NCBI GenBank assembly: GCA_947505035.1
Contig: CANNIS010000005.1
Coordinates: 1 to 42,335 of the forward strand
Origin: Sphingobacteriales bacterium
GTDB taxonomy: Bacteria > Bacteroidota > Bacteroidia > Sphingobacteriales > Sphingobacteriaceae
Direction: 5' to 3'
Length of the DNA stretch: 42,335 bases
Of the stretch, positions 1 to 41,418 are shown one piece after another (position 1 is the first letter of the stretch; each line of letters opens with the position of its first letter). The notes below the pieces were generated by a model. That model searched no databases and was not told where the DNA came from. It saw nothing but the letters and a program-made list of their open reading frames with translations. A program made the position numbers and the translations under genes.

Positions 1-98
1 AAGGGTAAAATATCTAAGAATGCAATAAACTGATCGGTCTCTGCTACTTTATAAGCAGGAATTTCGCCAGCAATAATTTTAGAAAAGATACTCAACAT
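1..98 (-). CDS. HIT family protein (N-terminal fragment, runs off the window start)
   Basis: Reverse complement of 1-98 translates [33 protein letters not shown], typical HIT protein N-terminus; ATG overlaps the greA stop (TAATG). Confidence 0.85.
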
Positions 99-571
99 TA
101 TCTTGAAATTTCGATGATTTCAAAATCAACATTACCACTTGGAACAGTAATAGTTACTTTGTCACCTACTGATTTGCCTAATAAGCCTTGAGCGATAGGA
201 GATTTAATGGAGATTTTTCCAGACTTCAAATCAGCTTCTTTTTCGGCAACTAATTGATAAGTCATTTCGGCTCCATTCTTCGTATTTTTTATTTTCACTT
301 TAGACAAAGCCAATACCTTAGACGCATCTAATTTTGATTCGTCAATAACACGAGCACTTCCTAAAACTTGCTCTAGTTTAGAAATTTTTAGCTCTAACAA
401 GCCTTGCGCTTCTTTAGCGGCATCGTATTCGGCGTTTTCGGACAAATCTCCTTTGTCTCTAGCTTCTGCGATTTGCTTAGAAATATTTATACGCTCTACC
501 GCTTTTAAATGCGCTACTTCTTCTTTTAATTTCTCTAATCCCTCTTGCGTAAAATAAGTTACTTCTGACAT
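98..571 (-). CDS. greA: Transcription elongation factor GreA
   Basis: 157 aa; N-terminal coiled coil with [27 protein letters not shown] and C-terminal [23 protein letters not shown]. Confidence 0.97.
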
Positions 572-610: not shown

Positions 611-650
611 AAAATAAAAGAAGACCGCATATCAATACGGCCTTCTTTTA
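611..650 (-). terminator. Rho-independent terminator downstream of the PorV/PorQ-family gene
   Basis: Minus-strand RNA TAAAAGAAGGCCG-(10-nt loop)-CGGTCTTCTTTTA followed by TTTTATC; 13-bp stem with one G.U pair (A.C on the plus strand), located 21 nt past the stop codon at 671. Confidence 0.8.
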
Positions 651-670
651 TAAAAAAATAAATTATAATG

Positions 671-1717
671 TTATAATGTTATACGCGCAGAAATTGCATG
701 CGTTCCATCATATACATGTGTTACTCTGTATGAATAATCAATGGCAAACGAAGCACCTTTATCATTTAAAGGCAATTCAATGGTACTACCAAAAGTCAAG
801 CCATTATAAACACTTGGAGAAGTTGACGCAAGTTCAATATTTTTCTCGCTGTTATATGCTCCTCTAAACATTAAATAATTTTTGTAACTATACTCTAATC
901 CTAAACCAATTAAATCGTTAGAAAATGAGTTAGATGTAAAATTAAACATGGGTGTTACACGATGGTCTTTTTCAAAATACAAATCGTAAGATAAGCCCAT
1001 GTTTAATAAAGAAGGAATTTGATAAGCTTGTGATTTACGGTATCCTTCTACTGCGAATGGCAAAGTAGGATCTGTAAACGTTGCCATCAAACCATCACCT
1101 TGCATTACCATGTCTGGACCAATGTTACGCAATGCAATTCCGAATTTTAATTCGTCGTTATCACCGCCGGTATATTGAATACCTGCATCTAAAGAAAATC
1201 CTGAAGAATTTAAATCTGCAATTGATTGCTGAATGCCTCTCACCAAAATACCCCCGTGAATACTGTTGGAGAATTCTTTTGAATACGCTAAAGCGAAATT
1301 CACTAATTTAGGAGAGAATTTTCCAATATTTCCTTCTGGTCTATCGTTGGTCGTTACATCGATATCACCAAAATCCATTGACATGATACTGATACCTAAT
1401 ACGCCGGATGTTCCTACTTTTTGACTCAATCCAAATGCGCTGATGTTTACATCAGAACCTTTTAACCAAGTTGTTCTAGAGAAAACTACTTCGGTGTTTT
1501 TAGTATAAGCTAATCCGCCAACGTTGACATTCATGGCTTCTACACCTTTTGCCATTGCCGTATTGATACCACCAAATCCGGCACTACGCGCCCAAGGGTT
1601 AATTAATAATTCTGTTGCGCCGCCAGTACCTGCGCGCTCGCCATTACCTGCAATTAAAATTGCAGGTAATAAAGCGCCTAATAATGTAGTACTTACTATT
1701 TTAAAAATATTTTTCAT
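671..1717 (-). CDS. PorV/PorQ family outer-membrane protein
   Basis: 348 aa with signal peptide, GGATELLINPWARSAGFGGINTAMAKGVEAMNVNVGGLAY N-terminal signature and beta-barrel-like alternation to the C-terminus (ISARITL). Confidence 0.85.
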   Translation of the reverse strand: MKNIFKIVSTTLLGALLPAILIAGNGERAGTGGATELLINPWARSAGFGGINTAMAKGVEAMNVNVGGLAYTKNTEVVFSRTTWLKGSDVNISAFGLSQKVGTSGVLGISIMSMDFGDIDVTTNDRPEGNIGKFSPKLVNFALAYSKEFSNSIHGGILVRGIQQSIADLNSSGFSLDAGIQYTGGDNDELKFGIALRNIGPDMVMQGDGLMATFTDPTLPFAVEGYRKSQAYQIPSLLNMGLSYDLYFEKDHRVTPMFNFTSNSFSNDLIGLGLEYSYKNYLMFRGAYNSEKNIELASTSPSVYNGLTFGSTIELPLNDKGASFAIDYSYRVTHVYDGTHAISARITL

Positions 1718-1742
1718 ATCTGATTTTTAATTCGTTCAACAA

Positions 1743-4700
1743 TTAAAAGTTTGTAAAATCAACAGGTCTCATTACACCTAACCATTTCAGCGTTTTCTCG
1801 CCAATGTCGTCGCAATAAATGTGAATAATATACACACCAGTTGCAATTGGGATTCTATTTGAATTTCTTAAATCCCATTCAATACTAGTGGTAGCCGCAT
1901 CAGATTTTGTAATTCTGCGCACTAACATACCATTGGTTGTATATACTGTTACTGTTGCTTTTGCAGGTAAATTAGTAAACCTAACTTTGTTAATGTTTTT
2001 GTCTGTTTCGTAAGTTGAATATGCATAGTATGGATTAGGCACCACATTAATTAATGATAATGCATTTTTATTATCCTCTGCCTTGTTGTCGAATGCAGAT
2101 CTTACAGAATTTTGTGTATTGAACTTGTAAACTGGCACACCTGTTCCTGTTGCCTCTGTTGCGAATTTTACATATGGTTTAGAAACGCGCAACCTTACTT
2201 TTACATCTGTTGATAATAATTGCTTACCCGCTGTTAATACTGGAACCGTAACCCAATCAACCATATAGTATGCTGTTTTTTGATCTGCATAAGCTGGATT
2301 GTTCAAATCTGTTCCGTTTTTACTTAACAAATTCCACAATTGATTACAGCCATCATATGGACGACGTGTTACATATATATGGTGACGACCTCCACGATTC
2401 AAGAAACTAGTATTTGAGGTTGGATTCCATTTCATATCGGCGCCATTTTCGTCTGCTAAAGCCGAAGCTTCTGCAAAGAAAATATTTACGCGTTCTCCGT
2501 TTTCTAAGTTAATTGCATAACCAGGGAATTTACTTTTACCAATACCGTAACCAATATTGTCCTGTCTCAAATTCATTCTCTTTTCATTGTTTTTAGAAGG
2601 CTCAATGGTTCCACCAACAGATGATTCTACTACAATACATTCTGACCATTTGGTGGTATCACTGGTAAACACGATATCGTAACTTCCGATTGAATCAAAT
2701 TTATAAGCCGTACCTTTTGTTACTTGATCGAATAAAGGACTTGTTTTCTTTAAATCTGTTGAAGTTGGATTTCTTAGTAATTTATAAGGCGCCCAAGTAC
2801 CACTTAATACATTGCTGTATACTTCGTCAGGGTCTACGGTTGCATTATTTTCTATCCAACCAGCAACGGCAGGTGTTGCATTACTTGCTAATCCGCTGTA
2901 ACCTGATAGCCAATTTTTAGATTTATCTGCATAAACAATAGAGGCTTCTAAGAAGTTATTATTGTTTTCAATGGCAGTAGCTGTACCCGGAGCACTTAAA
3001 GTATTGTTTACTCTAATAGAAAAACCAAGTGGTTTTGCATTCACTAAACGAGGCAAACCGTTCGAACCTATATCGTATGTACGAATTTGTGCTGCTTGCT
3101 CATTTTCATTTAAAGTAGTACTGGTATTATAGGTAGTATCCGAAACCATTAAAGTGTCATTGGTATCATCGTTTAATAATACATAACTCTTCATGTCTGC
3201 GGTAAATTCTAAGCGGTAATTTGCTTTTTCTAAAATGGTAGGATTGTAAACATTTATAGTTACTGGTCCTTTACTTACCGCATACTTTGCTTTGGGTTTT
3301 GTTGCACCTTTTAATACACCAGAAATAATATCTGATTCTGATGTTGGATCTAAATCTAACACTGCACCGCCATTACCTGCTCCAGCAAATCTAGTCACTG
3401 CTAAGCCGTCGTCTGCGATTCCATTAATTTTTCCGTTTAAAACTTGGCGGTTAGGAATTACTTTCACCACTTTAGTACTTGTTCTAGATGGTAAATATTT
3501 GGTGAACACTGCAGAATCTGCAACTGCATATGGAATACAAATAAAGTAATAATCTTTTCCGTTAATAAATTTACCATCAAAGCTGGTCGCGAATTGATCA
3601 GTAGCTACCTCAAAGTAATGTGCCACTCCTTTGTTTTCTCCGTCAATTTCAATTTTCGCTTGCGTGCTTTGTGTATTTGAATCAAAAGATTTATTGATTA
3701 CTCTTGAAATTTTATCTTTAATATCTACTTGTAAAATTTCAATTGCTTTAGAAATATCATTTAAGTTACTTACTGAAACTGTTTGATCTTTTACTTGATA
3801 GATTCTATAACCTTGGAATTTGTAATTGTATAATTTCAAATCTTCGTTATCTAATTCTCTTGCATTGTATCTTTCGCATTTAGTAGCTCCCTCTAACATG
3901 ATTTTAATTTTCTTGTCGCCTGGAACCACTACCATATTTACTGGCTCTGGACCATTCGCTAATTTAAATGCATTGTCAAATAAAACTTGTGCTTTATCAT
4001 CGCCTACTAATACAGCCGTTACAGATGATTTATTATCGCCATTATCTGCACGACCATAAACTGCACCAATAATTACTTCATTGACTGCGCCCGGTTGTAA
4101 AGTAAATGGCCCTGAAGATTGAACCATACGTCTATCTCCTGGTGTACTCGTTTCGTCCCATGGTGCACGGCCATCTGGATCTGTTGAGCCAGGGAATGCA
4201 TATAAACAAGTATCTGTTCCACCTCTACCTGTTGCTTGGCCATAAGTTAACGGTTGCCCATCTGCCCAAAAGCCTCTTAAGTAGCGGTATAATTGATTTG
4301 CGTTTGATGGATCGGAGTTGATACCCGCTTGACCTGCATTGGTAAAGAACATAAAAGTAGACATTGGTAATTCATTTCCGTTTTCATCTTTAGGACCACG
4401 GAAATAATCGATACCAAAACATGGAGGCGTTGCACCATAACCTAAAGCACCTACTCCTCCATCTTCATCATCATTATCTGCATTGTAAGTATAACCCAAA
4501 CTTCTTCTTTTAGGAGGAAGTGGGCCCGATGGGCCGTCACTATCTACTAATGCCATGTTGCAACCTACAAAGTCATCTGATGCATTACCTAAATCTGAAT
4601 CGGTAAATACACCAAAGTAGGTTTTAAATAATGGGGTGCTTGAACGGTTATATACGGAATACTTATAGAAAGTCATATTATTTAATTCGTTCGAAGTTTT

Positions 4701-5486
4701 GAACGCAAATGCTAAAGCGTGTACTTCTAATCCAATGGGCTCGCCACCTGGATAAGCGGTATGCACGCCACCTTTATCATTGTAAACCCACCAAATCATT
4801 TGATCTGGTTTAGCACCCAATTCATTAGGATCTAAAGTTGGGTAGTCACCACTCGCTGTATTGTAAATACCGTCGCCGTCTGCATCAAAGAATGGCGCCA
4901 TAAATTGAGCTTGTCCTTTACTTGCGTCTCCGTTACCTGGCCATTTTGCAATGTTTTCTGAAACAACTCCGCTTGATACATATTCTGTAATTTCTGGACG
5001 CAATACACTGTATTGTTTATCCCATGCTTTACAATCATCTTTAGTAACCGTAGCGGTTAAAGTATCTAAGGGGCCTGGCCAAAAATCTAAACCTGTTTGA
5101 CGATAGGTTTGACCAGCGGTTTTTAATTGTTCACCACCGTCAACACCACCAAACCACAAACCTGATGCAAAAGAAGCATGAATACTTCTTACTCCTGGAT
5201 CTACTTTTGGTACTTCATATCTTGCATTTTTAGTTGCAAAAATATCCCACCACATATCTCCGCCGTTTAACAATCTACAACGCACATTGTTAACATCTAA
5301 ATCAATTTGTGAGGATGCTGGGTCGCAAATATTTGCAGCCCTCATTTGTGTGCGAGGATAAGTTGGTGTCCCCGCTCCTGGGCCTTTGTATACATCGGCC
5401 TTTACTTGTCCTACTCCTAATGCAAGTGTCAAAAAACTTGCACCAACAAAAGCAGATAGTTTATATGATATATTTTTCATTTTCAT
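1743..5486 (-). CDS. Large secreted protein with T9SS-like C-terminal domain
   Basis: 1247 aa; signal peptide; C-terminal NVVPNPYYAYSTYETDKNINKVRFTNLPAKATVTVYTTNGMLVRRI...WDLRNSNRIPIATGVYIIHI resembling type A sorting domains. Confidence 0.8.
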   Translation of the reverse strand: MKMKNISYKLSAFVGASFLTLALGVGQVKADVYKGPGAGTPTYPRTQMRAANICDPASSQIDLDVNNVRCRLLNGGDMWWDIFATKNARYEVPKVDPGVRSIHASFASGLWFGGVDGGEQLKTAGQTYRQTGLDFWPGPLDTLTATVTKDDCKAWDKQYSVLRPEITEYVSSGVVSENIAKWPGNGDASKGQAQFMAPFFDADGDGIYNTASGDYPTLDPNELGAKPDQMIWWVYNDKGGVHTAYPGGEPIGLEVHALAFAFKTSNELNNMTFYKYSVYNRSSTPLFKTYFGVFTDSDLGNASDDFVGCNMALVDSDGPSGPLPPKRRSLGYTYNADNDDEDGGVGALGYGATPPCFGIDYFRGPKDENGNELPMSTFMFFTNAGQAGINSDPSNANQLYRYLRGFWADGQPLTYGQATGRGGTDTCLYAFPGSTDPDGRAPWDETSTPGDRRMVQSSGPFTLQPGAVNEVIIGAVYGRADNGDNKSSVTAVLVGDDKAQVLFDNAFKLANGPEPVNMVVVPGDKKIKIMLEGATKCERYNARELDNEDLKLYNYKFQGYRIYQVKDQTVSVSNLNDISKAIEILQVDIKDKISRVINKSFDSNTQSTQAKIEIDGENKGVAHYFEVATDQFATSFDGKFINGKDYYFICIPYAVADSAVFTKYLPSRTSTKVVKVIPNRQVLNGKINGIADDGLAVTRFAGAGNGGAVLDLDPTSESDIISGVLKGATKPKAKYAVSKGPVTINVYNPTILEKANYRLEFTADMKSYVLLNDDTNDTLMVSDTTYNTSTTLNENEQAAQIRTYDIGSNGLPRLVNAKPLGFSIRVNNTLSAPGTATAIENNNNFLEASIVYADKSKNWLSGYSGLASNATPAVAGWIENNATVDPDEVYSNVLSGTWAPYKLLRNPTSTDLKKTSPLFDQVTKGTAYKFDSIGSYDIVFTSDTTKWSECIVVESSVGGTIEPSKNNEKRMNLRQDNIGYGIGKSKFPGYAINLENGERVNIFFAEASALADENGADMKWNPTSNTSFLNRGGRHHIYVTRRPYDGCNQLWNLLSKNGTDLNNPAYADQKTAYYMVDWVTVPVLTAGKQLLSTDVKVRLRVSKPYVKFATEATGTGVPVYKFNTQNSVRSAFDNKAEDNKNALSLINVVPNPYYAYSTYETDKNINKVRFTNLPAKATVTVYTTNGMLVRRITKSDAATTSIEWDLRNSNRIPIATGVYIIHIYCDDIGEKTLKWLGVMRPVDFTNF

Positions 5487-5491
5487 TTATC

Positions 5492-8400
5492 TTAGAAGTT
5501 ATAGATTGCACCAATTCTAATTACTCTTGGTAATTTAAAGTTATCAGGATTATTCACTGCAATATGATACATGTCCATGTAAGCTTGTGGATCTTGGAAT
5601 TCAGTTAATGGTTGAACCGCTTGCGGTGAAGTTAAATAACCATCATCATCAGGTAAACCTGTAGCTGGATATAAACTTGCAATTCGTTTTGCGTTCAGAA
5701 CATTTTGAACCAACACATATAAATTTAAAGATGAACTTCTTCCTTTTCCATCGGCTGCTTTAGCAGTTAATTGAAAGTCTTTATCCATTCTTAAATCCAT
5801 ATTAATTTGCCAAGGTAAACGAGAACCATTGATCTCCCCAATTAACCTTCTGAAACGCGTATCGCCTGCAGAAAGAATATTCTGTACAATGTCTTGTGAA
5901 ATTCTTGAATATGGTGTTCCAGAACCAGCTCTAATGATAAAGTTAGAACCGAAACCTTCTAATAAACCTTTCAAAGCAGCAGGGCCATTGTAATCTGTAC
6001 CCATACCATAACGGTAATCAAGTGAAGCTACAATAGTATGTCTTTGGTCGTAATCTAATGGCAATGGAATTCTGATTGGCTCAGACTCCCCACTCGAAAT
6101 TAAATTTCCAGAAGAGGATGCATTAGAACCCGTTCCATTTGCAAACTGTAAAGTATAGGCAATGTTTGCAGATAAGTTATTGGTTCTTCTTAAATCATAC
6201 TGTAAAGTAAATCCTTTAATAGTACCAAAATCTTGGTTTTTAAAAGTAATATAAGAAGCAGGATAAGCTGTTGTAATTTGTACTTGTTGGAAGTTATCTT
6301 TTAACTCTTTATAGAAAGCGGTTAAAGTTAAGGCCGAAGTATTTCCAATTTTTTGTTTAAAACCTAACTGGTAGTTGATGGTTTTTTCTGGCGAAATATC
6401 CGGACTAACTATAGTTACATTTTGTGCACTCTTCGAATATAAATAGTAATTGATTGGATTACTGAATACGTTTGAACGAGGACGTTGTGTTAAGATGTCG
6501 TAGTTCGCAAAGAAATTTGCTTCGTCCGAAATAGGGAAAGAGAAAGCAACACGCGGCATGATTTGCGTTTGTGGCGCATAATCTTTAAAGCTATCTTTGG
6601 TTATTCTTGTATCGCCTTTATCGTTGAATGATTCTGATGTTAACCATGGCGTAACTTTACCGTCTTGTGTGCTTTTAATCGCAGTTACATCTGTAATCAT
6701 GTTACCTGCTGCATCATAGAAAACATCGCCCATTCTATAACCTCTAACACCACCGAATTGTTTATCGTTAACGTAAACCACTGCATCATCAGAAATATTA
6801 TCAGGTTTGCCGGTGATTTCTTTTGCTTTTCTAGTATCATATAAAGAGTATCTGTCTTTCAATACTTGTTGGTTGGCATCGAAACGATCGATACGCACCC
6901 CTAAACTAAAGATGACATCTTTATAAGTAAATTTATCTTGGATATAACCAGCAATGTACACTGGTCTGAATGCTCCAACCGAATTAAGTTGAGGTGTATC
7001 TGTTGTAAAGATTTCTGAGAAAGTAGGATTCTCTGTGCTTTTCAATTTCTTTCCATCATAAGAATATCCAGAATATGTAGTAAGCCGATTTTGCAATAAA
7101 AGTTCTGATCCAATGTCTGATAATTGGAAGGTAGATGGATCGTAAGCATCCACATCTAAATAGTCTCCCGCTTTTAAGCCTAATCTTTCTCTGACTATTT
7201 GTGCAAAACCAGGATCACCCACTGGAAAATCATTTGCTCTGCTCCAAGTTACGGTATCGCCCGAAACAGAAACGCCAGCAGCGTTTAAGTCGATGATTGA
7301 ATATCCTGTAGTCGCATCAACACTCAAAGCCGATTTGTCTAAAGATAAATAGCCATTAGCTTGTTGACGCATAAGAGACCATAAACCTATAGGGTTAATT
7401 CTAAATCTGCTTTCGATCCTTTGCTCGTACTCTAAACCAACTTGTATAGAGTGATTTTTAATGTCGGCAGAGGCCATCGCAGAAATTCTATATTGATCTC
7501 TTAAATTTTCTTCATAAGCATTTGCAACCGCACCTGGTTGGTTAAATAAACCACCATAAATACTTGGTGCACTGTTTCCATTTACAATACCACCTAAGCC
7601 CTGAAAGGTAGTTAAACTATTAATAGTACCCTCGCCAATTTCGCTATTGATAAATGAGTATAATGAGGAAACATAATTTGCTAAATATGGATTGGCAGAA
7701 CCTGCATTAAATAAAAATGCAGTGTCTCTAGTACCTGCATTTGTACCTGTTCCTACACTTTGGAAACGCACAGTATCTCCGTTAGAAGTTAGGACGGTAT
7801 CTGAAGAGGCAATAGCGCCGTATCTGTTTGTACGAAGTGTTTCGAATTTGCCGATATGACCATAGTTAAATAAATTTGCTTTATGGTTTGGATCTTGTTG
7901 TACACTTTGATCTCTAGAGAAATCTGCTTGTATGGTATAATATGCATTTTTCAATAAGTTTTTGCTTTCATCTTCGCCATTACTAGAGAATTTTTGAGTA
8001 TAACGACCATACACACGATAAGTATTTCTAGAAAATTCTTGGTTGTTATCAGAATTAAATAACATGTTAGTCCTGTTATATAATTTTTGATAACGGCTCG
8101 TACCAGAGAAACCAAATTTGAAAGTGTTATTTAAACTTGGTTGAAAATCTAAACTTGCATTAAAATTGATGTTACGAATTTCGTTACCATCTTGCACTTT
8201 TGATTTGTGGTCTATTTGTCCATTTTGTGTATAGTTACCATTTGGCACAGCCACAATTGGATTCGCAGATCCGGGAGTAAAATTAAAAGTTGCTGGATTT
8301 TTTCTAACAGATTCTAACCATGCAGAGTTTGCTTTCCAAGCGCCAACATAAGATGGGTTTTGATCTCTCTTACTTTCTAACTCGCCCGATAAAAAGAATC

Positions 8401-9229
8401 CTAAAATCGGTCTTTCTCCTTCTTGTCCTTTATTATGAATTAATAATGGGCCACTCAAATTTCCACTTACTAAATTATATCCGTAAGAATCTAAAAATTC
8501 AGAAGTAGCAGCTTCTACACCACCACCTAATTTTCTTGATGGCCCTTTTGTGGTGATAGTAATAATACCACCCGTTGCATCTCCGTATTGAGCAGGTACA
8601 CCACCAGTAATTACTGAAATTTGCTCTATTGCACCTTGAGGCACGCCGGTAATTCCCCTCACTTTTACACCATCAATATAATAATCGTTTGCATCATCTC
8701 TCGAACCCTTCACGATTAGGCCATCTCCTTCATCTGCTTGGTAAACACCTGCAGTTGTTGACACTAAAGAGTTAATATTTCTGGTAGGAAGTTTTACAAT
8801 TTCTTCCGCTGTTAAAGTTCCTCCTGCAGTATTGTTGTCTCTTTCAATCAAAGGTTTCGCGTAATCTGTTACGGTTACTGTTTGAATGTTAGTTACACTA
8901 GCAGCAATATCCGGATTGACATAGGTTTGTCTGTTAGCGTTAATTAAAACTCCGCTAATGATCCTTTTACTGTAGCCTATGATTTCCACGCGGACATCAT
9001 ACTTTCCTGGAGAGATTGGTTTGATAACATAGTTGCCATCAAAGTCTGTTTGTTGCGCAGCAACCTGAGTTCCATTTAACTCTACGATTACTCCTGCAAA
9101 CGGCACTCCCTCTTTAGTCTTAGCGTCTACAACCTTTCCTCTTAGTTCACCTGCACCGCTTTGCGCGACTGCCGATTGGCCAATTGTGATGGTTAACAAG
9201 ACTAAGAATGCGTAAAACTTTCTTATCAT
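5492..9229 (-). CDS. TonB-dependent receptor with N-terminal carboxypeptidase-regulatory-like domain
   Basis: 1245 aa; signal peptide, GELRGKVVDAKTKEGVPFAGVIVELNG regulatory-like domain, plug YYIDGVKVRG...AIEQISVITGGVPAQYGDATGGIITITTKGPSRK, beta-barrel ending RVIRIGAIYNF. Confidence 0.92.
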   Translation of the reverse strand: MIRKFYAFLVLLTITIGQSAVAQSGAGELRGKVVDAKTKEGVPFAGVIVELNGTQVAAQQTDFDGNYVIKPISPGKYDVRVEIIGYSKRIISGVLINANRQTYVNPDIAASVTNIQTVTVTDYAKPLIERDNNTAGGTLTAEEIVKLPTRNINSLVSTTAGVYQADEGDGLIVKGSRDDANDYYIDGVKVRGITGVPQGAIEQISVITGGVPAQYGDATGGIITITTKGPSRKLGGGVEAATSEFLDSYGYNLVSGNLSGPLLIHNKGQEGERPILGFFLSGELESKRDQNPSYVGAWKANSAWLESVRKNPATFNFTPGSANPIVAVPNGNYTQNGQIDHKSKVQDGNEIRNINFNASLDFQPSLNNTFKFGFSGTSRYQKLYNRTNMLFNSDNNQEFSRNTYRVYGRYTQKFSSNGEDESKNLLKNAYYTIQADFSRDQSVQQDPNHKANLFNYGHIGKFETLRTNRYGAIASSDTVLTSNGDTVRFQSVGTGTNAGTRDTAFLFNAGSANPYLANYVSSLYSFINSEIGEGTINSLTTFQGLGGIVNGNSAPSIYGGLFNQPGAVANAYEENLRDQYRISAMASADIKNHSIQVGLEYEQRIESRFRINPIGLWSLMRQQANGYLSLDKSALSVDATTGYSIIDLNAAGVSVSGDTVTWSRANDFPVGDPGFAQIVRERLGLKAGDYLDVDAYDPSTFQLSDIGSELLLQNRLTTYSGYSYDGKKLKSTENPTFSEIFTTDTPQLNSVGAFRPVYIAGYIQDKFTYKDVIFSLGVRIDRFDANQQVLKDRYSLYDTRKAKEITGKPDNISDDAVVYVNDKQFGGVRGYRMGDVFYDAAGNMITDVTAIKSTQDGKVTPWLTSESFNDKGDTRITKDSFKDYAPQTQIMPRVAFSFPISDEANFFANYDILTQRPRSNVFSNPINYYLYSKSAQNVTIVSPDISPEKTINYQLGFKQKIGNTSALTLTAFYKELKDNFQQVQITTAYPASYITFKNQDFGTIKGFTLQYDLRRTNNLSANIAYTLQFANGTGSNASSSGNLISSGESEPIRIPLPLDYDQRHTIVASLDYRYGMGTDYNGPAALKGLLEGFGSNFIIRAGSGTPYSRISQDIVQNILSAGDTRFRRLIGEINGSRLPWQINMDLRMDKDFQLTAKAADGKGRSSSLNLYVLVQNVLNAKRIASLYPATGLPDDDGYLTSPQAVQPLTEFQDPQAYMDMYHIAVNNPDNFKLPRVIRIGAIYNF

Positions 9230-9268
9230 AATGTTGATCTTAAGGTTTATTGATTTTTTAATATAAAA

Positions 9269-9301
9269 TAAATATAATGTTATTATAATTTAAAAAACAA
9301 A
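9269..9301 (-). promoter_or_regulatory. Candidate Bacteroidota promoter for the TonB receptor operon
   Basis: Minus strand TTTG-N21-TATATTTA, close to TTTG-N19-TAnnTTTG, about 40 nt upstream of the start at 9229. Confidence 0.35.
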
Positions 9302-33579: not shown

Positions 33580-34995
33580 TTATTTATTAGGTTTTCTAGC
33601 TTTAAATTTCTTTGCGTCTTGCGATCCTAATCTAACCATAGCACAACGGAATCCTATGTCTGAAGCAGTTGCGTCTTCATCCATAAATCTACGAACACCA
33701 GGATTCAAGAAATAAGCGCGATCGTTCCAAGATCCACCTTTGTATACTCTTGCTTTGTTATTAATCATACTGGTTACACCATAAGCATACATAGACTCAT
33801 CGTCAATGTCACCGCGTTTATCAGGACTTGCATAAGCATCGTAATCAACCACTCTTTTTACATTTCCTAAACTATCTTTCTCTGCAATGTTTCCATCGGC
33901 ATCTGTAGCAGGTTTAGTATATACGTTTCCACGGAATGGATTGAAATCGCTTTTGTCTTCTGGAGATAAAGGACGGTAAACATCCATCACCCACTCACTC
34001 ACATTTCCTGCCATATTATATAAACCAAAATCGTTAGGAACAAAAGCTCTTACCGGACCAGTTATATCGTAACTGTCATTTAAATTGCCAGCAACACCCA
34101 TATTATCTCCACGACCTCTTTTGTAATTGGCATACATAATACCTTTTCCTTTTCCCTCTGGATCACGAGTGGTTAAACCATTCCAAGCATAAAGTCTTTT
34201 TTGATTTACATTTTCGAATTGCGAATTTCCTTTCAATGCTTTGGCTGCATATTCCCATTCTGCCTCTGTTGGTAAACGGTAATTAGGTAATAAAATGCCG
34301 TCTTCTAAACGCACACGACGAGTTGGCTCGCCATTTGGATCTAAGTTTTTCAAATTCTTTTTAACCATGCCTTCGTATTGGCCAGAAAGATAAGCTTGTG
34401 TACTGAAGTTGTCTTCGTTGACTTGATTAGGATTGTCTTTTAATATTCCTTTGTCAATTAAAATTCTTTCATTTACGCGATCTGTTCTCCATGCGCAATA
34501 TTCATTTGCTTGGGTCCAAGAAACGCCTACTACTGGATAGTTTTTGTATGCTGGGTGACGTAAATAATTATCTACATAAGGCTCATTAAATCCGAGTGGA
34601 TTTCTCCAAGCTAAGGTGTCTGGTAACGCTTTTTCATATGCTTCTGGATAATCTGCACCATAAACACGCTTTAACCAATATAAATACTCACAATAGTCAA
34701 CGTTAGTAACTTCGGTTTCATCCATATAAAAAGAAGAAACAGAAACTCTTCTTTCGTAATTGTCATTATCGAAAGCTAAATCTTGCTCCATAGAACCCAT
34801 TACAAAAGTTCCGCCTTCTAAGAAGATTAAACCTGGCCCTGTTGCCTGTTCTGCGTCTTTGTATACTTGAAAGCCACCGTTCTTTTTGTCGTTGTATTTC
34901 CAGCCTGTTCTAGCTGATTTCTCAGAACATGAAGAAACAGTAACTAGCATGCCTGCCATCAAAAAGTAAACAGAAAAATTGATTAATTTTTTCAT
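33580..34995 (-). CDS. gldJ: Gliding motility/T9SS lipoprotein GldJ (SUMF1/FGE-like)
   Basis: 471 aa; MKKLINF...VSSCS lipobox; GPGLIFLEGGTFVMGS, SFYMDETEVTNVDYCEYLYWLKRVY, NYLRHPAYKNYPVVGVSWTQANEYCAWRTDRVNE; adjacent to porU/porV. Confidence 0.9.
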   Translation of the reverse strand: MKKLINFSVYFLMAGMLVTVSSCSEKSARTGWKYNDKKNGGFQVYKDAEQATGPGLIFLEGGTFVMGSMEQDLAFDNDNYERRVSVSSFYMDETEVTNVDYCEYLYWLKRVYGADYPEAYEKALPDTLAWRNPLGFNEPYVDNYLRHPAYKNYPVVGVSWTQANEYCAWRTDRVNERILIDKGILKDNPNQVNEDNFSTQAYLSGQYEGMVKKNLKNLDPNGEPTRRVRLEDGILLPNYRLPTEAEWEYAAKALKGNSQFENVNQKRLYAWNGLTTRDPEGKGKGIMYANYKRGRGDNMGVAGNLNDSYDITGPVRAFVPNDFGLYNMAGNVSEWVMDVYRPLSPEDKSDFNPFRGNVYTKPATDADGNIAEKDSLGNVKRVVDYDAYASPDKRGDIDDESMYAYGVTSMINNKARVYKGGSWNDRAYFLNPGVRRFMDEDATASDIGFRCAMVRLGSQDAKKFKARKPNK

Positions 34996-35098
34996 CTGTA
35001 TGTTATTTTATTTGTTTTGCCTTCTTTGGCATATTACCAAATAAGCGATGTTGAATTAAGATTTAACGAAGTAAATATATTTATTATTATTCAAATAC

Positions 35099-36070
35099 TT
35101 AGAAAGAAGGGCAATTTACACGCTTGTAATTTTTACCCTTAGCCTTCGAAGGCGGTTGTTGCAATTGGATTGACAATGAAAATTCATGTGCCCCAGATGC
35201 GGAAGCCCTTAACTCTGAAGTAATGATATCATAGCTATAGCCAAACTTGTAAATGTCATATTTAAAGCCCACCAAGCCAATAAATGAATCGCCATTTACA
35301 AAACTAGAACGATACCAAGAACCTGCTACAATTGGCCCTCTATTGTAATACATACCAATATTTAACTGACTATTAGACCCTTGTTGTTGGTATAATATGT
35401 TAGGCGAAATAGACGCATTATATTGCCTTTTACCTACTGGAATAAAGCCTCCAGCATGAATAGTGTATTTGCGAGGTAATGGTGAATTTCCACCATCAAA
35501 AGACTGATTAGGTTCGGTTAAATGATCGATCGAGAAACCTCCAAAAAAGTTCTCAGAAAATAAGATAGCGCCAGTTCCAAAATCTAAATAGCTGGCATTT
35601 AAATTGCCTGCTGAAGGGTCGTTAGTGGTGTAAATTGGCGTGCCTTGTGCATCGTAACCCCAAATTAAATTATTAGTATTCACCGAATTAGAAGAATATG
35701 AAGTTGAAATTGCAGGCTTAATCATTATTTTTCTGTTTACTTTTAGGTTGTAAGAGTAAACTGCAGTGATTCGCGTGGCTTTGAAAACACCATTTGCTTG
35801 GTTATCATTTGCAACCATTATGCCAATTCCACCATTTAAATTTGGCATATATTGATCATAAGAGAAAGCGGTGTTTCGGTAAGCTTTATTAATTCCTGGC
35901 CATTGATTACGGTGATTTAAAATAACCCTAGGGCCATCTGCAGTACCAGCAAACGCAGGGTTTAAGTAAAGAGGCGCTGCGTAAAACTGCGAATAATGAG
36001 CGTCTTGCGCTTTAACTGCTGTTAAGGCTAATAAACCAAAAAATAATAATCCTAATTTCTTTTTTAACAT
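35099..36070 (-). CDS. PorP/SprF family type IX secretion membrane protein
   Basis: QDAHYSQFYAAPLYLNPAFAGTADGPRVILNHRNQWPGINKAYRNTAFSYDQYMPNLNGGIGIMVANDNQA is the PorP/SprF signature. Start chosen at MLKKKLGLL (36070); 36082 is also possible. Confidence 0.94.
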   Translation of the reverse strand: MLKKKLGLLFFGLLALTAVKAQDAHYSQFYAAPLYLNPAFAGTADGPRVILNHRNQWPGINKAYRNTAFSYDQYMPNLNGGIGIMVANDNQANGVFKATRITAVYSYNLKVNRKIMIKPAISTSYSSNSVNTNNLIWGYDAQGTPIYTTNDPSAGNLNASYLDFGTGAILFSENFFGGFSIDHLTEPNQSFDGGNSPLPRKYTIHAGGFIPVGKRQYNASISPNILYQQQGSNSQLNIGMYYNRGPIVAGSWYRSSFVNGDSFIGLVGFKYDIYKFGYSYDIITSELRASASGAHEFSLSIQLQQPPSKAKGKNYKRVNCPSF

Positions 36071-36084
36071 AGGTAAAAACAATT

Positions 36085-36105
36085 TTAGAATATCTGCTAT
36101 TCTAA
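36085..36105. repeat. Perfect inverted repeat upstream of porP
   Basis: TTAGAATA-TCTGC-TATTCTAA: 8-bp arms, 5-nt loop. Confidence 0.75.
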
Positions 36106-36115
36106 GTCAGAACAT

Positions 36116-36143
36116 CAAATATAGATAAAATATTTATTGTATA
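36116..36143 (-). promoter_or_regulatory. Candidate porP/sprF promoter
   Basis: Minus strand TATATTTG (exact TAnnTTTG) at 36116-36123, preceded by a T-rich -33 candidate (TTTT) about 19 nt upstream. Confidence 0.45.
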
Positions 36144-36244
36144 AAAATAGGCAATTTTATACACTAATATCCGTTTAAACAGGAATTTTAATGAAATTTG
36201 GGGCATTTGTAAGAATTAGCCTTATTTTTAAGCTTATTGCAATT

Positions 36245-39200
36245 ATGAAAATCAAGAAATACCTCTTTTTTTGCCTTTTTTTTGGCTTTTCTGCGCATTC
36301 GGGCTTAACAATGGCTCAACAGTTAAACTCCTATAAGCTAAATTGGAGCGTCAAAGAATTCGCAGACTTTAAAGCGCAGCCCCAAAAAGTAGAGCTATTT
36401 GACGATGCTATTTTTGATGTGCAACTTAAACATTTGCCCATTTGGAATAAAAAGTTTGCAGGCAATTTTACCGATGCTGTTTTAGTGAATCCCATTTACG
36501 AGCCTGCCGCCATTGCATACGAAAACATGATTAGTGCGCAATTAAATGCAGCAGCAAGTATTCATGCTGCAGTTGTTTTTGAAAAGAAAATTCCTTCTTT
36601 GCTTGTTTCTATTGTACCCTTCAGAAAAAATACCGAAACCGGAAAAATGGAAAGATTAGTTTCCTTTGAAGTAAAATTACTTGCTACCAGAGTAAGGGAA
36701 AATGTTTTAAATACTAGGAATTATGCTGCTCATTCTGTTTTAAATAATGGCACCTGGACTAAACTTGGCATTGCAAATGATGGTGTTTATAAGATTGGTT
36801 TTGCTGAATTAAAAAAGATGGGCATCAACCCAGAATCGATTGACCCAAGAAATATTCGTATTTATGGAAATGGGGGTGGCATACTTCCAGAAATCAACAG
36901 AGCAAGCCGATACGACGACTTAACAGAAAATCCGATTTTGGTTTTCGGAGAAGCCGATGGTAAATTTAATGAATCAGACTACCTATTATTTTATGCATTT
37001 GGACCAAATAATATTTATCCAGATACCATTCAAAATACCTTTTCGCATACTACCAATTCATACACTTTAAAAAGTAATTATTTTATCACGGCAGACATAG
37101 GCCCCGGCAAAAGAATTACAAATCAAGAAAACCTAAACGAAGTGCCCAATAAAATTATAGACACCTATAATTACTTTGAATTACATGAATTAAATAATTC
37201 GACAGGCGTTAATTTAACTATTAAAAGCGGCAGAGAAAGATGGGGAGAAGAATTTGGTAATTTACTTTCTTATGATTTTAATTTTAGGCTTCCGACATTG
37301 GCTAACGGAAAACCTGTGAAATTTAGGGCAGATTTAATTGGTCGGTCGCAAAATCCAGCCAATAGCTCTTTTGTGATTAAAGCAAATGGCGCAACAACCA
37401 ATACCTTAACTTGTTCTGGTGTAGAGTTTAGTTATGATGCTGCCTACGGATCGATTGTAAGTACAGGCTACACCACAGTTCCCAATCCATCTGAAAACCT
37501 GCTCATCAATATTACTTATAACAAACCAGATTTAACCGCAACCGGTTATTTAAATTTCATTCAAATTAATGCCATTAGTAAATTAAAATTAAATGATAAT
37601 TTTTTGAAGTTTAGTAGTATAGAAAGTTATGGCAAAGGTAAAATTAGTCAGTTTATTATTGATGCCCTTAACCCGAGCGAAATAATAATTTGGGATATTA
37701 CAAACAGAACAAATCCAGTAAACCAATTATTTACGATCAATAATAACATTGCACAATTTACTAACAAAACTGAGGTATTAAAAGAGTATGCGGTATTTAA
37801 AGGAACAGATTTCCCTAAGCCCGAAATACTAGAAAAAATAGCCAACCAAGATTTACATGCACTCGATTTTGTAGATCTTATAATTGTTTCTGCCGCAGAT
37901 TTTTTGTCTGAAGCAGAGCGTTTAGCTGCCTTTCGAAGAACGAATAATAATTTGCGTGTATTGGTAATTACAGAAGATAAAATTTTCAATGAATTTAGTG
38001 CAGGGGTTAAAGATGCAAGTGCTATTAGGGATTTTGTAAAAATGTTTTATGATAGAGCTGGCGCAAATGAAGCAAACATGCCAAAATATTTATTGCTGTT
38101 TGGCGATGGCTCTTACGATAATATTGGCTTTGTAAAAAACAACACCAATTTTGTTACAAGCTTTGAAAGCAGGAATTCACACTCTCCTTTTGGCTCCTAT
38201 GTGAGTGATGATTTTTTTGGTTTGCTCGACGAAACTGAAGGTGATTTTGACTACAACGGAAATCCCGTATATGGCGCAGCTGCATTAGACGTAGCAGTTG
38301 GTAGAATGCCGATTCAATCAGCTTTAGAAGCAAGGCAAATGGTCGACAAACTAATTTCTTACAGCAGCTTAAGAGGCGATTGGAAAAATAAATATGTCTT
38401 AGTGGCCGACGACCAAGATGGAAACTTGCATTTAAATCATGCCGAAAATCATTACCGAACCATCAGAAAACTAACCAATAATTATAATGTTGATAAGATT
38501 TATTTAGACGCTTATCCTCAAATTAGCACACCCGCTGGAAGCCGATACCCAGAAGTAAACAATGCCATTAACCAAGCTATGGCTGCAGGCGCATTAGTGA
38601 TTAATTATATTGGGCATGGTGGAGAGGTTGGTCTTGCACACGAAAAAGTTGTTACCCTTGATGACATCCGTTCTTGGAAAAACAAATCGAGCATGCCACT
38701 GCTTTTTACCGCAACTTGTTCGGTCAGTAGATGGGATGACCCTGCATTTCAATCGGCAGGAGAACAATGTTTATTAAATGCCGAAGGTGGCGCTATTGCT
38801 ATGTTTACAACCACCCGCGTGGTTTTTGCAAACGAAAACGAAGCAATTAACCAAAGTTTTATCAAAGCACTGTTTGATTCTACAAATATAGGTAGCAATA
38901 ATACGCTTGGCGATTTATTTAGACAAAGCAAAAACTTAAATGGTTTAGGCTTGACTATTAATCAAAGAAATTTTTCTTTACTAGGTGATCCTTCTTTGCC
39001 ATTTGCTATTCCGCAATACCGTATCGTTACAGAAAAAGTAAATGAAAAATTAATCAGTGCTAAAAATTTAGATACTTTAAAAGCGCAGAGTTTAGTCAAT
39101 ATCAAAGGATATATTACAGATCAAAATGGAAACAAGCTTAATAATGTTTCGGGTGTTTTGTATCCAAGTATTTTTGATAAAAAAACTACCCTTAAAACGC

Positions 39201-40111
39201 TTGGGCAAGATATTGGCGTGAATGGAAGTAAGGTGCAAAATTTCGATATTCAAAAAAATATTATTTACAAAGGGAAAGTAAGCGTAACAAATGGTTCGTT
39301 TGATTTTAGTTTTGTGGTACCAAAAGATATTTCGTATCAAGCAGGCGCTGGCAGACTCAGCTATTACGCACATGTAGGCCCACAAGAGGCCATCGGATCT
39401 TTTGATAGCATTGTTATTGGCGGATCTGCTAATACAAGTAATTCGGATAAAATTGGACCAGAAATTAAAACTTATTTGAATTCCGAAAATTTTGTAATGG
39501 GCGGCATCACCAACGAAAATCCTAATTTAATTGTGAAGTTAAAAGACGCCAACGGCATCAACACTGTCGGCAATGGTATTGGGCATAATTTAACTGCCAC
39601 TATTACCAAAGATGCTAAGTCGGAAACAATCGATTTAAATCAATATTACGAATCCAAATTAGATAGCTATCAAGAAGGAGAAATCAATTATCCTTTCAAT
39701 AAATTAGCTGCTGGAAATTATACAATAAAAATTAAGGCCTGGGATGTTTTCAATAATTCGGCAGAAAGTAATACTGCATTTACAGTTGTATCGTCTGAAG
39801 GATTGCAATTGCAACATGTGTTAAATTACCCAAATCCTTTTACCACGCAAACAGATTTTCAGTTTGAACACAATGGTGGAAGCGAAAACTTACAAGTACA
39901 AGTGCAAATATTTACTGTTTCTGGTAAACTGGTTAAAACAATCAACCAAAACACAAGCGGCAATGGCGCAAGAGTAACCGGCATTTTATGGGACGGTAAA
40001 GATGATTTTGGCGATAAAATAGGCAGAGGGGTTTATGTATACCGATTAAAAATTCGCACAGCGAATGGGCAAAGTGCCGAAAAAACAGAAAAGCTCGTAT
40101 TGTTAAATTAA
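36245..40111 (+). CDS. porU: Type IX secretion system sortase PorU (C25 gingipain-like)
   Basis: NYIGHGGEVGLAHEKVVTLDDI and LLFTATCSVSRWDDPAFQSAGEQCLLN carry the catalytic His/Cys; C-terminal T9SS domain. Start placed at MKIKKYLFFCLFFGFSAHSGLTMAQQ (36245), a classical signal peptide, rather than 36191. Confidence 0.95.
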   Translation: MKIKKYLFFCLFFGFSAHSGLTMAQQLNSYKLNWSVKEFADFKAQPQKVELFDDAIFDVQLKHLPIWNKKFAGNFTDAVLVNPIYEPAAIAYENMISAQLNAAASIHAAVVFEKKIPSLLVSIVPFRKNTETGKMERLVSFEVKLLATRVRENVLNTRNYAAHSVLNNGTWTKLGIANDGVYKIGFAELKKMGINPESIDPRNIRIYGNGGGILPEINRASRYDDLTENPILVFGEADGKFNESDYLLFYAFGPNNIYPDTIQNTFSHTTNSYTLKSNYFITADIGPGKRITNQENLNEVPNKIIDTYNYFELHELNNSTGVNLTIKSGRERWGEEFGNLLSYDFNFRLPTLANGKPVKFRADLIGRSQNPANSSFVIKANGATTNTLTCSGVEFSYDAAYGSIVSTGYTTVPNPSENLLINITYNKPDLTATGYLNFIQINAISKLKLNDNFLKFSSIESYGKGKISQFIIDALNPSEIIIWDITNRTNPVNQLFTINNNIAQFTNKTEVLKEYAVFKGTDFPKPEILEKIANQDLHALDFVDLIIVSAADFLSEAERLAAFRRTNNNLRVLVITEDKIFNEFSAGVKDASAIRDFVKMFYDRAGANEANMPKYLLLFGDGSYDNIGFVKNNTNFVTSFESRNSHSPFGSYVSDDFFGLLDETEGDFDYNGNPVYGAAALDVAVGRMPIQSALEARQMVDKLISYSSLRGDWKNKYVLVADDQDGNLHLNHAENHYRTIRKLTNNYNVDKIYLDAYPQISTPAGSRYPEVNNAINQAMAAGALVINYIGHGGEVGLAHEKVVTLDDIRSWKNKSSMPLLFTATCSVSRWDDPAFQSAGEQCLLNAEGGAIAMFTTTRVVFANENEAINQSFIKALFDSTNIGSNNTLGDLFRQSKNLNGLGLTINQRNFSLLGDPSLPFAIPQYRIVTEKVNEKLISAKNLDTLKAQSLVNIKGYITDQNGNKLNNVSGVLYPSIFDKKTTLKTLGQDIGVNGSKVQNFDIQKNIIYKGKVSVTNGSFDFSFVVPKDISYQAGAGRLSYYAHVGPQEAIGSFDSIVIGGSANTSNSDKIGPEIKTYLNSENFVMGGITNENPNLIVKLKDANGINTVGNGIGHNLTATITKDAKSETIDLNQYYESKLDSYQEGEINYPFNKLAAGNYTIKIKAWDVFNNSAESNTAFTVVSSEGLQLQHVLNYPNPFTTQTDFQFEHNGGSENLQVQVQIFTVSGKLVKTINQNTSGNGARVTGILWDGKDDFGDKIGRGVYVYRLKIRTANGQSAEKTEKLVLLN

Positions 40112-40129
40112 GCTTTTGCCTTATTTTTC

Positions 40130-40137
40130 TATCTTTG
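40130..40137 (+). promoter_or_regulatory. Candidate -7 element upstream of porV
   Basis: TATCTTTG, exact TAnnTTTG, 33 nt before the porV ATG; no well-spaced -33 TTTG seen. Confidence 0.35.
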
Positions 40138-40170
40138 AAAATATAGGCAATCGCATACAAATTATTTTAG

Positions 40171-41418
40171 ATGAAATTAAAAAGTAAAAATTCAGTTGTT
40201 GTTGGCAAAACTATTTTTTTCGCTGCCTTGTTTTGCAGTATGATGCAAAGTGCTTCGGCGCAAATTAGCACGCAAAACTTAAATGGAAATGGCGATGCGG
40301 TAAATGCCATTACCACTGCGGTGCCATTTTTATTAATTGGCCCAGATTCTAGAGCAGGTGCAATGGGCGATGGCGGCGTAGCAAGCAGCGCAGATGTTAA
40401 TTCAAATCATTGGAATCCTTCTAAATTTGCTTTTGTTGATAGACCTTATGCAATTGGTATTTCTTATACCCCATGGTTACAAAAATTAGTTCCAGATATT
40501 AACCTTGCTTATTTATCGGGCTATTATAAATTAGACAACAAGCAAGTGTTTGGCGCATCTTTAAGATACTTTTCTTTAGGTGATATTACCTTTACAGACA
40601 ATGCCGGAAATGTAACCGGGCAAGGTAATCCAAACGAATTTGCACTTGACTTATCTTATACCAGAAAACTTTCGGACAGGCTAGGTTTAGGAACAGCATT
40701 TCGATTTATTAATTCCGATTTAGCACAAGGACAATTAGCCGCATCGGGCCAAGATATTATGCCAGGAAGAAGTGTGGCGGTAGACGTATCTACCTATTAT
40801 CAAAATCCGGATTTAATTGTTGATGGTAAAAGAACAACCTTCTCTTTTGGCGCATGTGTTTCGAATGTAGGTGCTAAAATGAATTATACAAATTCTACCG
40901 ATCGATTTTTTATTCCAACTAATTTAAAAATTGGTATTGGTGGAAAAATGAAATTAGATGACTATAACGAAATTTCTGCCTTTGTGGAAGCGAATAAGTT
41001 ATTAGTGCCCACACCTCCTATTTACGCATACGATACTTTAAATAATCCGATTTATAATTTAGACGGCACTCGAAAAATTATTTCGGGCAAAGATCCGAAC
41101 GTTTCTGTTCCCACTGGAATCTTGCAATCGTTTAACGATGCACCGGGTGGTATGAAAGAAGAGTTTAGAGAGATCTATTATTCGGCTGGTTTTGAATATT
41201 GGTACGATAAACAATTTGCCTTAAGAGCAGGTTACTTTTACGAGCATCCAACTAAAGGCGATAGACAATACTTTACCATTGGTGCAGGTATTAAATACAA
41301 TATTTTTGGAATCGATCTTTCCTATTTAATTCCAACTAAACAACAAAATCCATTAGAGAATACTTTAAGATTCTCGCTTACCTTTAACTTCGAAGACATA
41401 AAAACTGATGAAAATTAA
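40171..41418 (+). CDS. porV: Type IX secretion system outer membrane protein PorV (LptO)
   Basis: 415 aa; AVNAITTAVPFLLIGPDSRAGAMGDGGVASSADVNSNHWNPSKFAF signature; directly downstream of porU. Confidence 0.95.
   Translation: MKLKSKNSVVVGKTIFFAALFCSMMQSASAQISTQNLNGNGDAVNAITTAVPFLLIGPDSRAGAMGDGGVASSADVNSNHWNPSKFAFVDRPYAIGISYTPWLQKLVPDINLAYLSGYYKLDNKQVFGASLRYFSLGDITFTDNAGNVTGQGNPNEFALDLSYTRKLSDRLGLGTAFRFINSDLAQGQLAASGQDIMPGRSVAVDVSTYYQNPDLIVDGKRTTFSFGACVSNVGAKMNYTNSTDRFFIPTNLKIGIGGKMKLDDYNEISAFVEANKLLVPTPPIYAYDTLNNPIYNLDGTRKIISGKDPNVSVPTGILQSFNDAPGGMKEEFREIYYSAGFEYWYDKQFALRAGYFYEHPTKGDRQYFTIGAGIKYNIFGIDLSYLIPTKQQNPLENTLRFSLTFNFEDIKTDEN

Follow-up and report, generated by a model that had tools for sequence, protein, structure and literature searches.

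A three-gene unit kept together across Bacteroidota encodes a large protein with a T9SS-like C-terminal domain between a TonB-dependent receptor and a PorV-family barrel

Proteins with a type A C-terminal domain (CTD) leave the SprA translocon of the T9SS on PorV (PMC10994853), and type B proteins have cognate PorP/SprF barrels, the gene for which often lies directly downstream (PMC9143113, PMC12618676). In the P. gingivalis T9SS attachment complex, PorU and PorZ retain their CTDs, which are reported to be unprocessed, and have PorV and PorQ, respectively, as their anchors (PMC5562754, PMC10202324). A FadL/PorV-fold barrel whose loops hold a large extracellular protein has also been described in BamG-BamH of the Bacteroidota BAM (PMC12611786, PMC12578637). 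The locus described here lies in a window of 42,335 nucleotides (the whole stretch of DNA that was analysed) from a Sphingobacteriales bacterium, and combines a PorV-family gene with those of a large protein, MID, and a TonB-dependent receptor (TBDR). No description of this trio unit was found in the open-licence literature. Its features are as follows.

5492..9229, minus strand: TBDR, TonB-dependent receptor of 1245 aa that passes Pfam cut-offs
1743..5486, minus strand: MID, large protein of 1247 aa with a signal peptide and a CTD-like Ig domain at its end
1746..2060, minus strand: type A/PorZ-like CTD of MID, from about residue 1143 to residue 1247, in which the conserved C-terminal Lys is K1234
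1746..1769, minus strand: private 8-residue tail of MID past the usual CTD end (RPVDFTNF), strongly conserved, with low model confidence
671..1717, minus strand: PVL, PorV/PorQ-family FadL-like barrel of 348 aa that belongs to a clade apart and is proposed as the dedicated carrier/anchor for MID
614..651, minus strand: intrinsic terminator at the end of the trio unit, with a 17-bp stem and a 4-nt loop followed by a T-rich stretch
9269..9301, minus strand: Bacteroidota-type promoter-like element 5' of TBDR, plausible only
98..571, minus strand: greA, the next gene downstream of the trio, behind the terminator

The trio resembles PorZ-PorQ and PorU-PorV, in which a CTD-bearing surface protein sits on a PorV-family barrel, as far as gene pairing and CTD similarity go, the CTD of MID being nearest to that of PorZ. 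It differs from them in that PVL is a barrel distinct from both PorV and PorQ, the body of MID is not that of PorZ or PorU, and a fixed TBDR and the extra 8-residue MID tail are added. With the type B adhesin/shuttle pairs (SprB-SprF and PG1035-PorP; PMC9143113, PMC12618676) the trio shares a barrel gene directly 3' of the substrate gene, and the use of one common shuttle by orphan substrates and anchoring by the shuttle are likewise proposed for it; however, the trio combines a type A/PorZ-like CTD with a PorV-family barrel and includes a TBDR. PorV, the general type A carrier (PMC10994853), belongs to the same family as PVL and is its best fold match, and MID retains, as K1234, the CTD Lys through which PorV is contacted, whereas PVL falls into a different clade, scores below the PorV equivalog cut-off and is proposed to serve one private substrate family. 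As in the SusCD/RagAB TBDR-lid transporters, a CarboxypepD_reg-like TBDR is encoded beside a large partner with a predicted surface location, but MID is no SusD lipoprotein (it lacks both a Pfam domain and a lipobox) and would be exported by the T9SS and anchored by a barrel; a profile search of the three genes gave no match to TIGR04056 (SusC family), including for the TBDR, or to SusD. BamH, in contrast to MID, is a surface lipoprotein bound to BamA, and BamG-BamH includes no CTD and no TBDR.

The three genes are read from the same strand in the order TBDR, MID, PVL, with intergenic gaps of 5 bp and then 25 bp between the ORFs of the window, and the first-pass annotation was correct in coordinates, order and strand. 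The strong terminator that it had placed downstream was confirmed by a stem that is perfect over 17 bp (-22.2 kcal/mol, z = -7.25). Because this terminator intervenes and greA is not beside the trio outside class Bacteroidia, greA was placed outside the unit. The promoter-like element reported upstream was found to be an exact match to TTTG-N21-TAnnTTTR (9269-9301), but the window holds 16 such matches against 10.6 +/- 3 expected, not a clear excess over chance, and its role as the trio promoter is plausible.

The predicted TonB-dependent receptor with a CarboxypepD_reg-like domain passed the Pfam cut-offs for all three domains (TonB_dep_Rec, Plug and CarboxypepD_reg), with 36.6 bits against 23.9 for the plug (PF07715) and 51.1 against 27 for the barrel (PF00593), and can be classed as a TonB-dependent receptor as annotated. 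Its layout comprises a signal peptide, the CarboxypepD_reg-like domain, a TonB-box-like segment kept in the family (consensus L.EV.VV.Y..PLI), the plug and the barrel. No sequence match to the TBDR was found in the PDB.

The assignment of PVL to the PorV/PorQ family was supported by a score of 137 bits against a cut-off of 90 for NF033709, covering residues 34-345. PVL was far under the equivalog cut-offs of PorV (61/250 bits), PorQ (74/220) and PorV2 (35/325), and a score of 13.7 against 90.55 bits for PorP_fam sets the unit apart from the type B CTD/SprF pairs. The AF2 model of PVL (pLDDT 86.7) showed a predicted FadL-like barrel with PorV nearest; the PDB fold matches began with 8gl6_F (PorV, E 1.4e-13, TM 0.70) and 6h3i_F (PorV), followed by FadL proteins and BamG. 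By sequence, PorV (6h3i) was merely a weak PDB match. In a tree of 57 PorV-family proteins, 27 of the 28 trio PVLs formed one clade (support 100/99) apart from PorV, PorQ and PorV2, and by this phylogeny PVL is an ancient, distinct branch of the PorV family. The one PVL outside the clade (L208, family f86) falls into another CTD-linked group, and the CTD of its unit is without the tail. The genome carries five PorV-family genes, namely PorV (in the window), PorQ, PorV2, PVL and one beside another TBDR. The canonical porU-porV pair noted in the window was verified, as porU (36191-40111) and porV (40171-41418) both scored far above their cut-offs. That PVL is probably not the general shuttle, as had been proposed, is supported by the presence of this canonical PorV, the separate PVL clade and a neighbouring CTD tail that is private to the MID family.

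The C-terminus of MID had been described as T9SS-like. It scored just below the cut-offs for the T9SS type A CTD (TIGR04183; 19.8 against 23 bits) and FlgD_ig (20.6 against 27), and thus is not a type A CTD by score; the resemblance itself held, in that the domain could be aligned over its full length with two CTDs from the same genome, those of PorU and an ExeM/NucH-like protein, with the strand pattern and the near-invariant C-terminal Lys (K1234) preserved, and it can be called type A-like. Its nearest named relatives were type A and PorZ CTDs (PDB 5m11; NF052228 for the out-of-class MID of L190, a CTD-only match at 34.5 against 260 bits), and the profile search gave no type B CTD match for MID.

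The CTD of MID extends 8 residues past the ends of the PorU and ExeM-like CTDs. Across the class, MIDs end in K-W-F-G-x-M-R-P-x-D-L-x-x-F, the family form of the tail being R-P-x-D-L-x-x-F, and K-x4/5-[RH]-x2-[DE] was kept, and the tail present, in every intact MID from the named loci (79/79), 10 of which are orphan paralogues. In 60 related genomes, the CTD matches that reached the tail were only MID frames or contig-cut MID pieces, usually 1-2 per genome, and the other CTDs stopped short of the tail position. The aligned trio MIDs from outside the class have a different tail sequence but keep the extra length, and most of them end in F, Y, L or I. When orphan and trio MIDs were compared in two genomes, identity was 99% and 82% in the CTD and 84% and 65% in the rest of the protein. 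The tail was lost in some extra MID copies (L058 and the second MID of L135). The last ten residues of the MID model had a mean confidence of 51, and such a segment, conserved yet poorly ordered on its own, is what a partner-binding segment would be expected to look like. A second MID copy, possibly a duplicated subunit, was seen directly 3' of PVL in L135:9908-19561 and in L136; the tailless copy of L135 ends in GEKVLKWFGSRYQE.

The signal peptide of MID is followed by about 1090 residues without a Pfam domain, and the lipobox Cys is absent. No Pfam domain above threshold was present in any of 18 MID homologues, searches of Pfam, PHROGs and the PDB by sequence gave no match beyond the CTD, and the protein has no family name. 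The whole-length PorZ equivalog (NF052228) gave no listed match for MID, and no sequence match to PorZ was seen outside the CTD. A fold search with the MID model (pLDDT 84.3) returned partial matches only, with a query TM of 0.17 or less, to the beta-supersandwich of GH116/GH94 enzymes; PorZ (5m11) was among the matches, and the remaining weak ones share the beta-supersandwich known from carbohydrate enzymes. This weak likeness lies in the N-terminal part of the model and hints at a carbohydrate-related fold; with matches as partial as these, MID is not claimed as an enzyme. Three invariant cysteines, Cys54, Cys152 and Cys309, may be engaged in disulfide bonds.

Homologues were searched in the 60 related genomes and in a collection of named genomes. 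They were not scattered away from the TBDR and PorV-family neighbours: at the 76 named loci readable on both sides, both neighbours were present in 66, neither in 10, and a single neighbour in none. The orphan MIDs, where checked, share their genome with a complete unit (L113 with L121, and L083 with L086). Recurrence in other Bacteroidota, which had been suggested as a possibility, was confirmed outside class Bacteroidia, where a set of 18 loci from 13 families showed the order TBDR-MID-PVL in 17, each locus being the best MID match of its genome and not a random pick; the 18th is cut off by a contig end. The trio at L050, L189, L194 and L195 was recovered by six-frame profile search. Within the class, the trio is followed by greA in 61/64 loci and by a HIT-family gene in 55/61, and both were absent beside the trio in all 18 out-of-class loci. 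Since the flanks changed outside the class and the order of the trio did not, shared genomic background was ruled out as the cause of the linkage. The partial correlations of pairwise distances beyond the greA/HIT controls were 0.69 for TBDR-MID, 0.70 for TBDR-PVL and 0.53 for MID-PVL. The synteny counts show that the arrangement is far beyond chance and that the trio is kept together phylum-wide in Bacteroidota. In the class loci L079-L158, greA and the HIT-family gene track the trio despite the terminator that stands between greA and the unit in the window.

Of 296 genomes in an even sample of class Bacteroidia, 246 gave a MID-profile match, which in about ten was weak and limited to the CTD, and 289 had SprA. 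MID was present in 245 of the 289 SprA-positive genomes and in 1 of the 7 SprA-negative ones (Fisher p 1e-4, a weak test with kinship ignored, only seven negative genomes and the weak CTD-only matches counted as MID). In most of the window's own family, SprA is present and the unit absent. Because SprA-bearing lineages exist without MID, the unit is neither part of nor essential to the T9SS machine.

The pairing of CTD and PorV-family genes extends beyond the trio. In four out-of-class genomes (G353, G340, G344 and G395), 28 of the 43 listed PorV-family genes lie directly 3' of a CTD gene against about 0.08 expected (12/16, 6/10, 4/6 and 6/11 in each), where a pair was defined by a start within 500 bp downstream of the CTD gene on the same strand and PorU-PorV pairs were included. 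In G353, 16 PorV-family genes were over the family cut-off. Cognate pairs of type A-like CTDs and PorV-family carriers may thus be a general system.

TBDR, MID and PVL probably build one outer-membrane complex. The main inference of the first-pass annotation, a dedicated surface complex in which the PorV paralogue receives or anchors the large protein, is supported in part, with strong backing from the comparative data. We consider it fairly probable that MID is a T9SS substrate that is collected by PVL through its CTD and tail, left uncleaved, and held as the extracellular part of the TBDR complex. MID would enter the periplasm via Sec, and the CTD would then take it through the T9SS translocon and across the outer membrane, a step suggested by the CTD resemblance. 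PVL, and not PorV, would collect MID, the loops of PVL binding the CTD and the 8-residue tail. The CTD would stay uncut, as proposed for PorZ on PorQ, and MID would remain on PVL as a non-covalent surface subunit, beside or over the TBDR. There it might bind the ligand of a transporter powered by TonB, or form its surface lid, in place of a SusD-type lipoprotein. Synteny, co-evolution, fold and the precedents of PorZ-PorQ and type B-SprF (PMC5562754, PMC9143113, PMC12618676) argue for such a three-protein complex; gene clustering can also reflect co-regulation without contact.

The latter is part of a reading that we regard as rather unlikely, in which MID is ordinary type A cargo, collected by PorV and relieved of its CTD by PorU, and PVL is a FadL-like channel for hydrophobic nutrients beside the TBDR. 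MID does keep the overall CTD fold and the Lys that is invariant in type A, the canonical PorU and PorV are present, and the fold of PVL is FadL-like as well as PorV-like; however, its top match is PorV and not FadL, the private tail is confined to the CTD family adjoining PVL, and in four other genomes PorV-family genes follow immediately on CTD genes far more often than expected by chance. It is highly improbable that MID is periplasmic or otherwise independent of the T9SS, with an FlgD-like Ig domain that is no sorting signal. Although the domain scores below the cut-off of the curated type A model, its alignment with genuine CTDs covers the full length, and MID is depleted in SprA-negative genomes. 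The one genome that keeps MID without a detected SprA (G090) is 95% complete, but the listed genomes of the same genus have SprA, and the gap is probably one of assembly.

An envelope-maintenance module like PorZ-PorQ, in which the TBDR would act in signalling or assembly and not in nutrient import, and MID would handle a surface glycan such as LPS, is also improbable. The PorZ-like CTD, the PorZ and beta-supersandwich fold matches and the near-universal presence of the trio in the class (246/296 genomes), unlike most nutrient loci, speak for it. MID shows no PorZ likeness in sequence beyond the CTD, however, its fold matches are weak, the TBDR retains a TonB-box-like segment, and closely related lineages lost the trio and kept the T9SS. 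The complex of a TBDR with a PVL-held MID is the reading that we favour.

The trio can be described as an unnamed, phylum-wide PorV-family/CTD pair joined by a TBDR. If the model is true, a unit carried by most sampled genomes of class Bacteroidia and represented in no fewer than 13 families beyond the class would be an unrecognised core surface complex of Bacteroidota. Specialised T9SS shuttles, so far those of type B CTDs with PorP/SprF, would extend to the PorV family, and the model suggests that TonB receptors can have T9SS-delivered partners. More tentatively, and with less confidence than in the complex itself, the trio might represent a phylum-wide class of TonB-dependent transporters with a T9SS-exported lid on a dedicated PorV-family carrier through an uncleaved, tailed CTD, and PorV-family barrels in general might be one-substrate carriers for type A-like CTDs, in parallel to SprF and type B. 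It has been proposed that cognate PorV-like barrels might shield CTDs such as that of PorZ from sortase cleavage (PMC10202324). The PorV-family/CTD pairs make this idea testable well beyond PorZ, with the trio as a clean case. In the open-licence literature, no papers on cognate PorV-family/CTD pairs and no relevant papers on PorV paralogues or PorV2/PorU2 were found.

A second TBDR-containing locus with a PorV-like barrel was observed on another contig of the same genome (L076:3521-14412, contig C11). It encodes CTD proteins of 704 aa and 710 aa, a probable lipoprotein of 505 aa, a TBDR of 942 aa, a PorV-like barrel of 343 aa and a probable lipoprotein of 400 aa. The barrel is found together with the last gene in 8 of 10 loci, and the CTD protein of about 700 aa co-occurs with this type of barrel in the sampled genomes. 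The TBDR lies 5' of the barrel in only 2 of the 10 loci, and the locus was rejected as an equal example of the trio.

The window also carries a T9SS/gliding cluster (33580-41418), which consists of a gldJ-like gene (447 against 458 bits), a PorP/SprF-family barrel, porU and porV. This PorP/SprF-family barrel has a single Cys near its C-terminus (NCPSF), which recalls the C-tail cysteines by which SprF binds GldK (PMC12635249).
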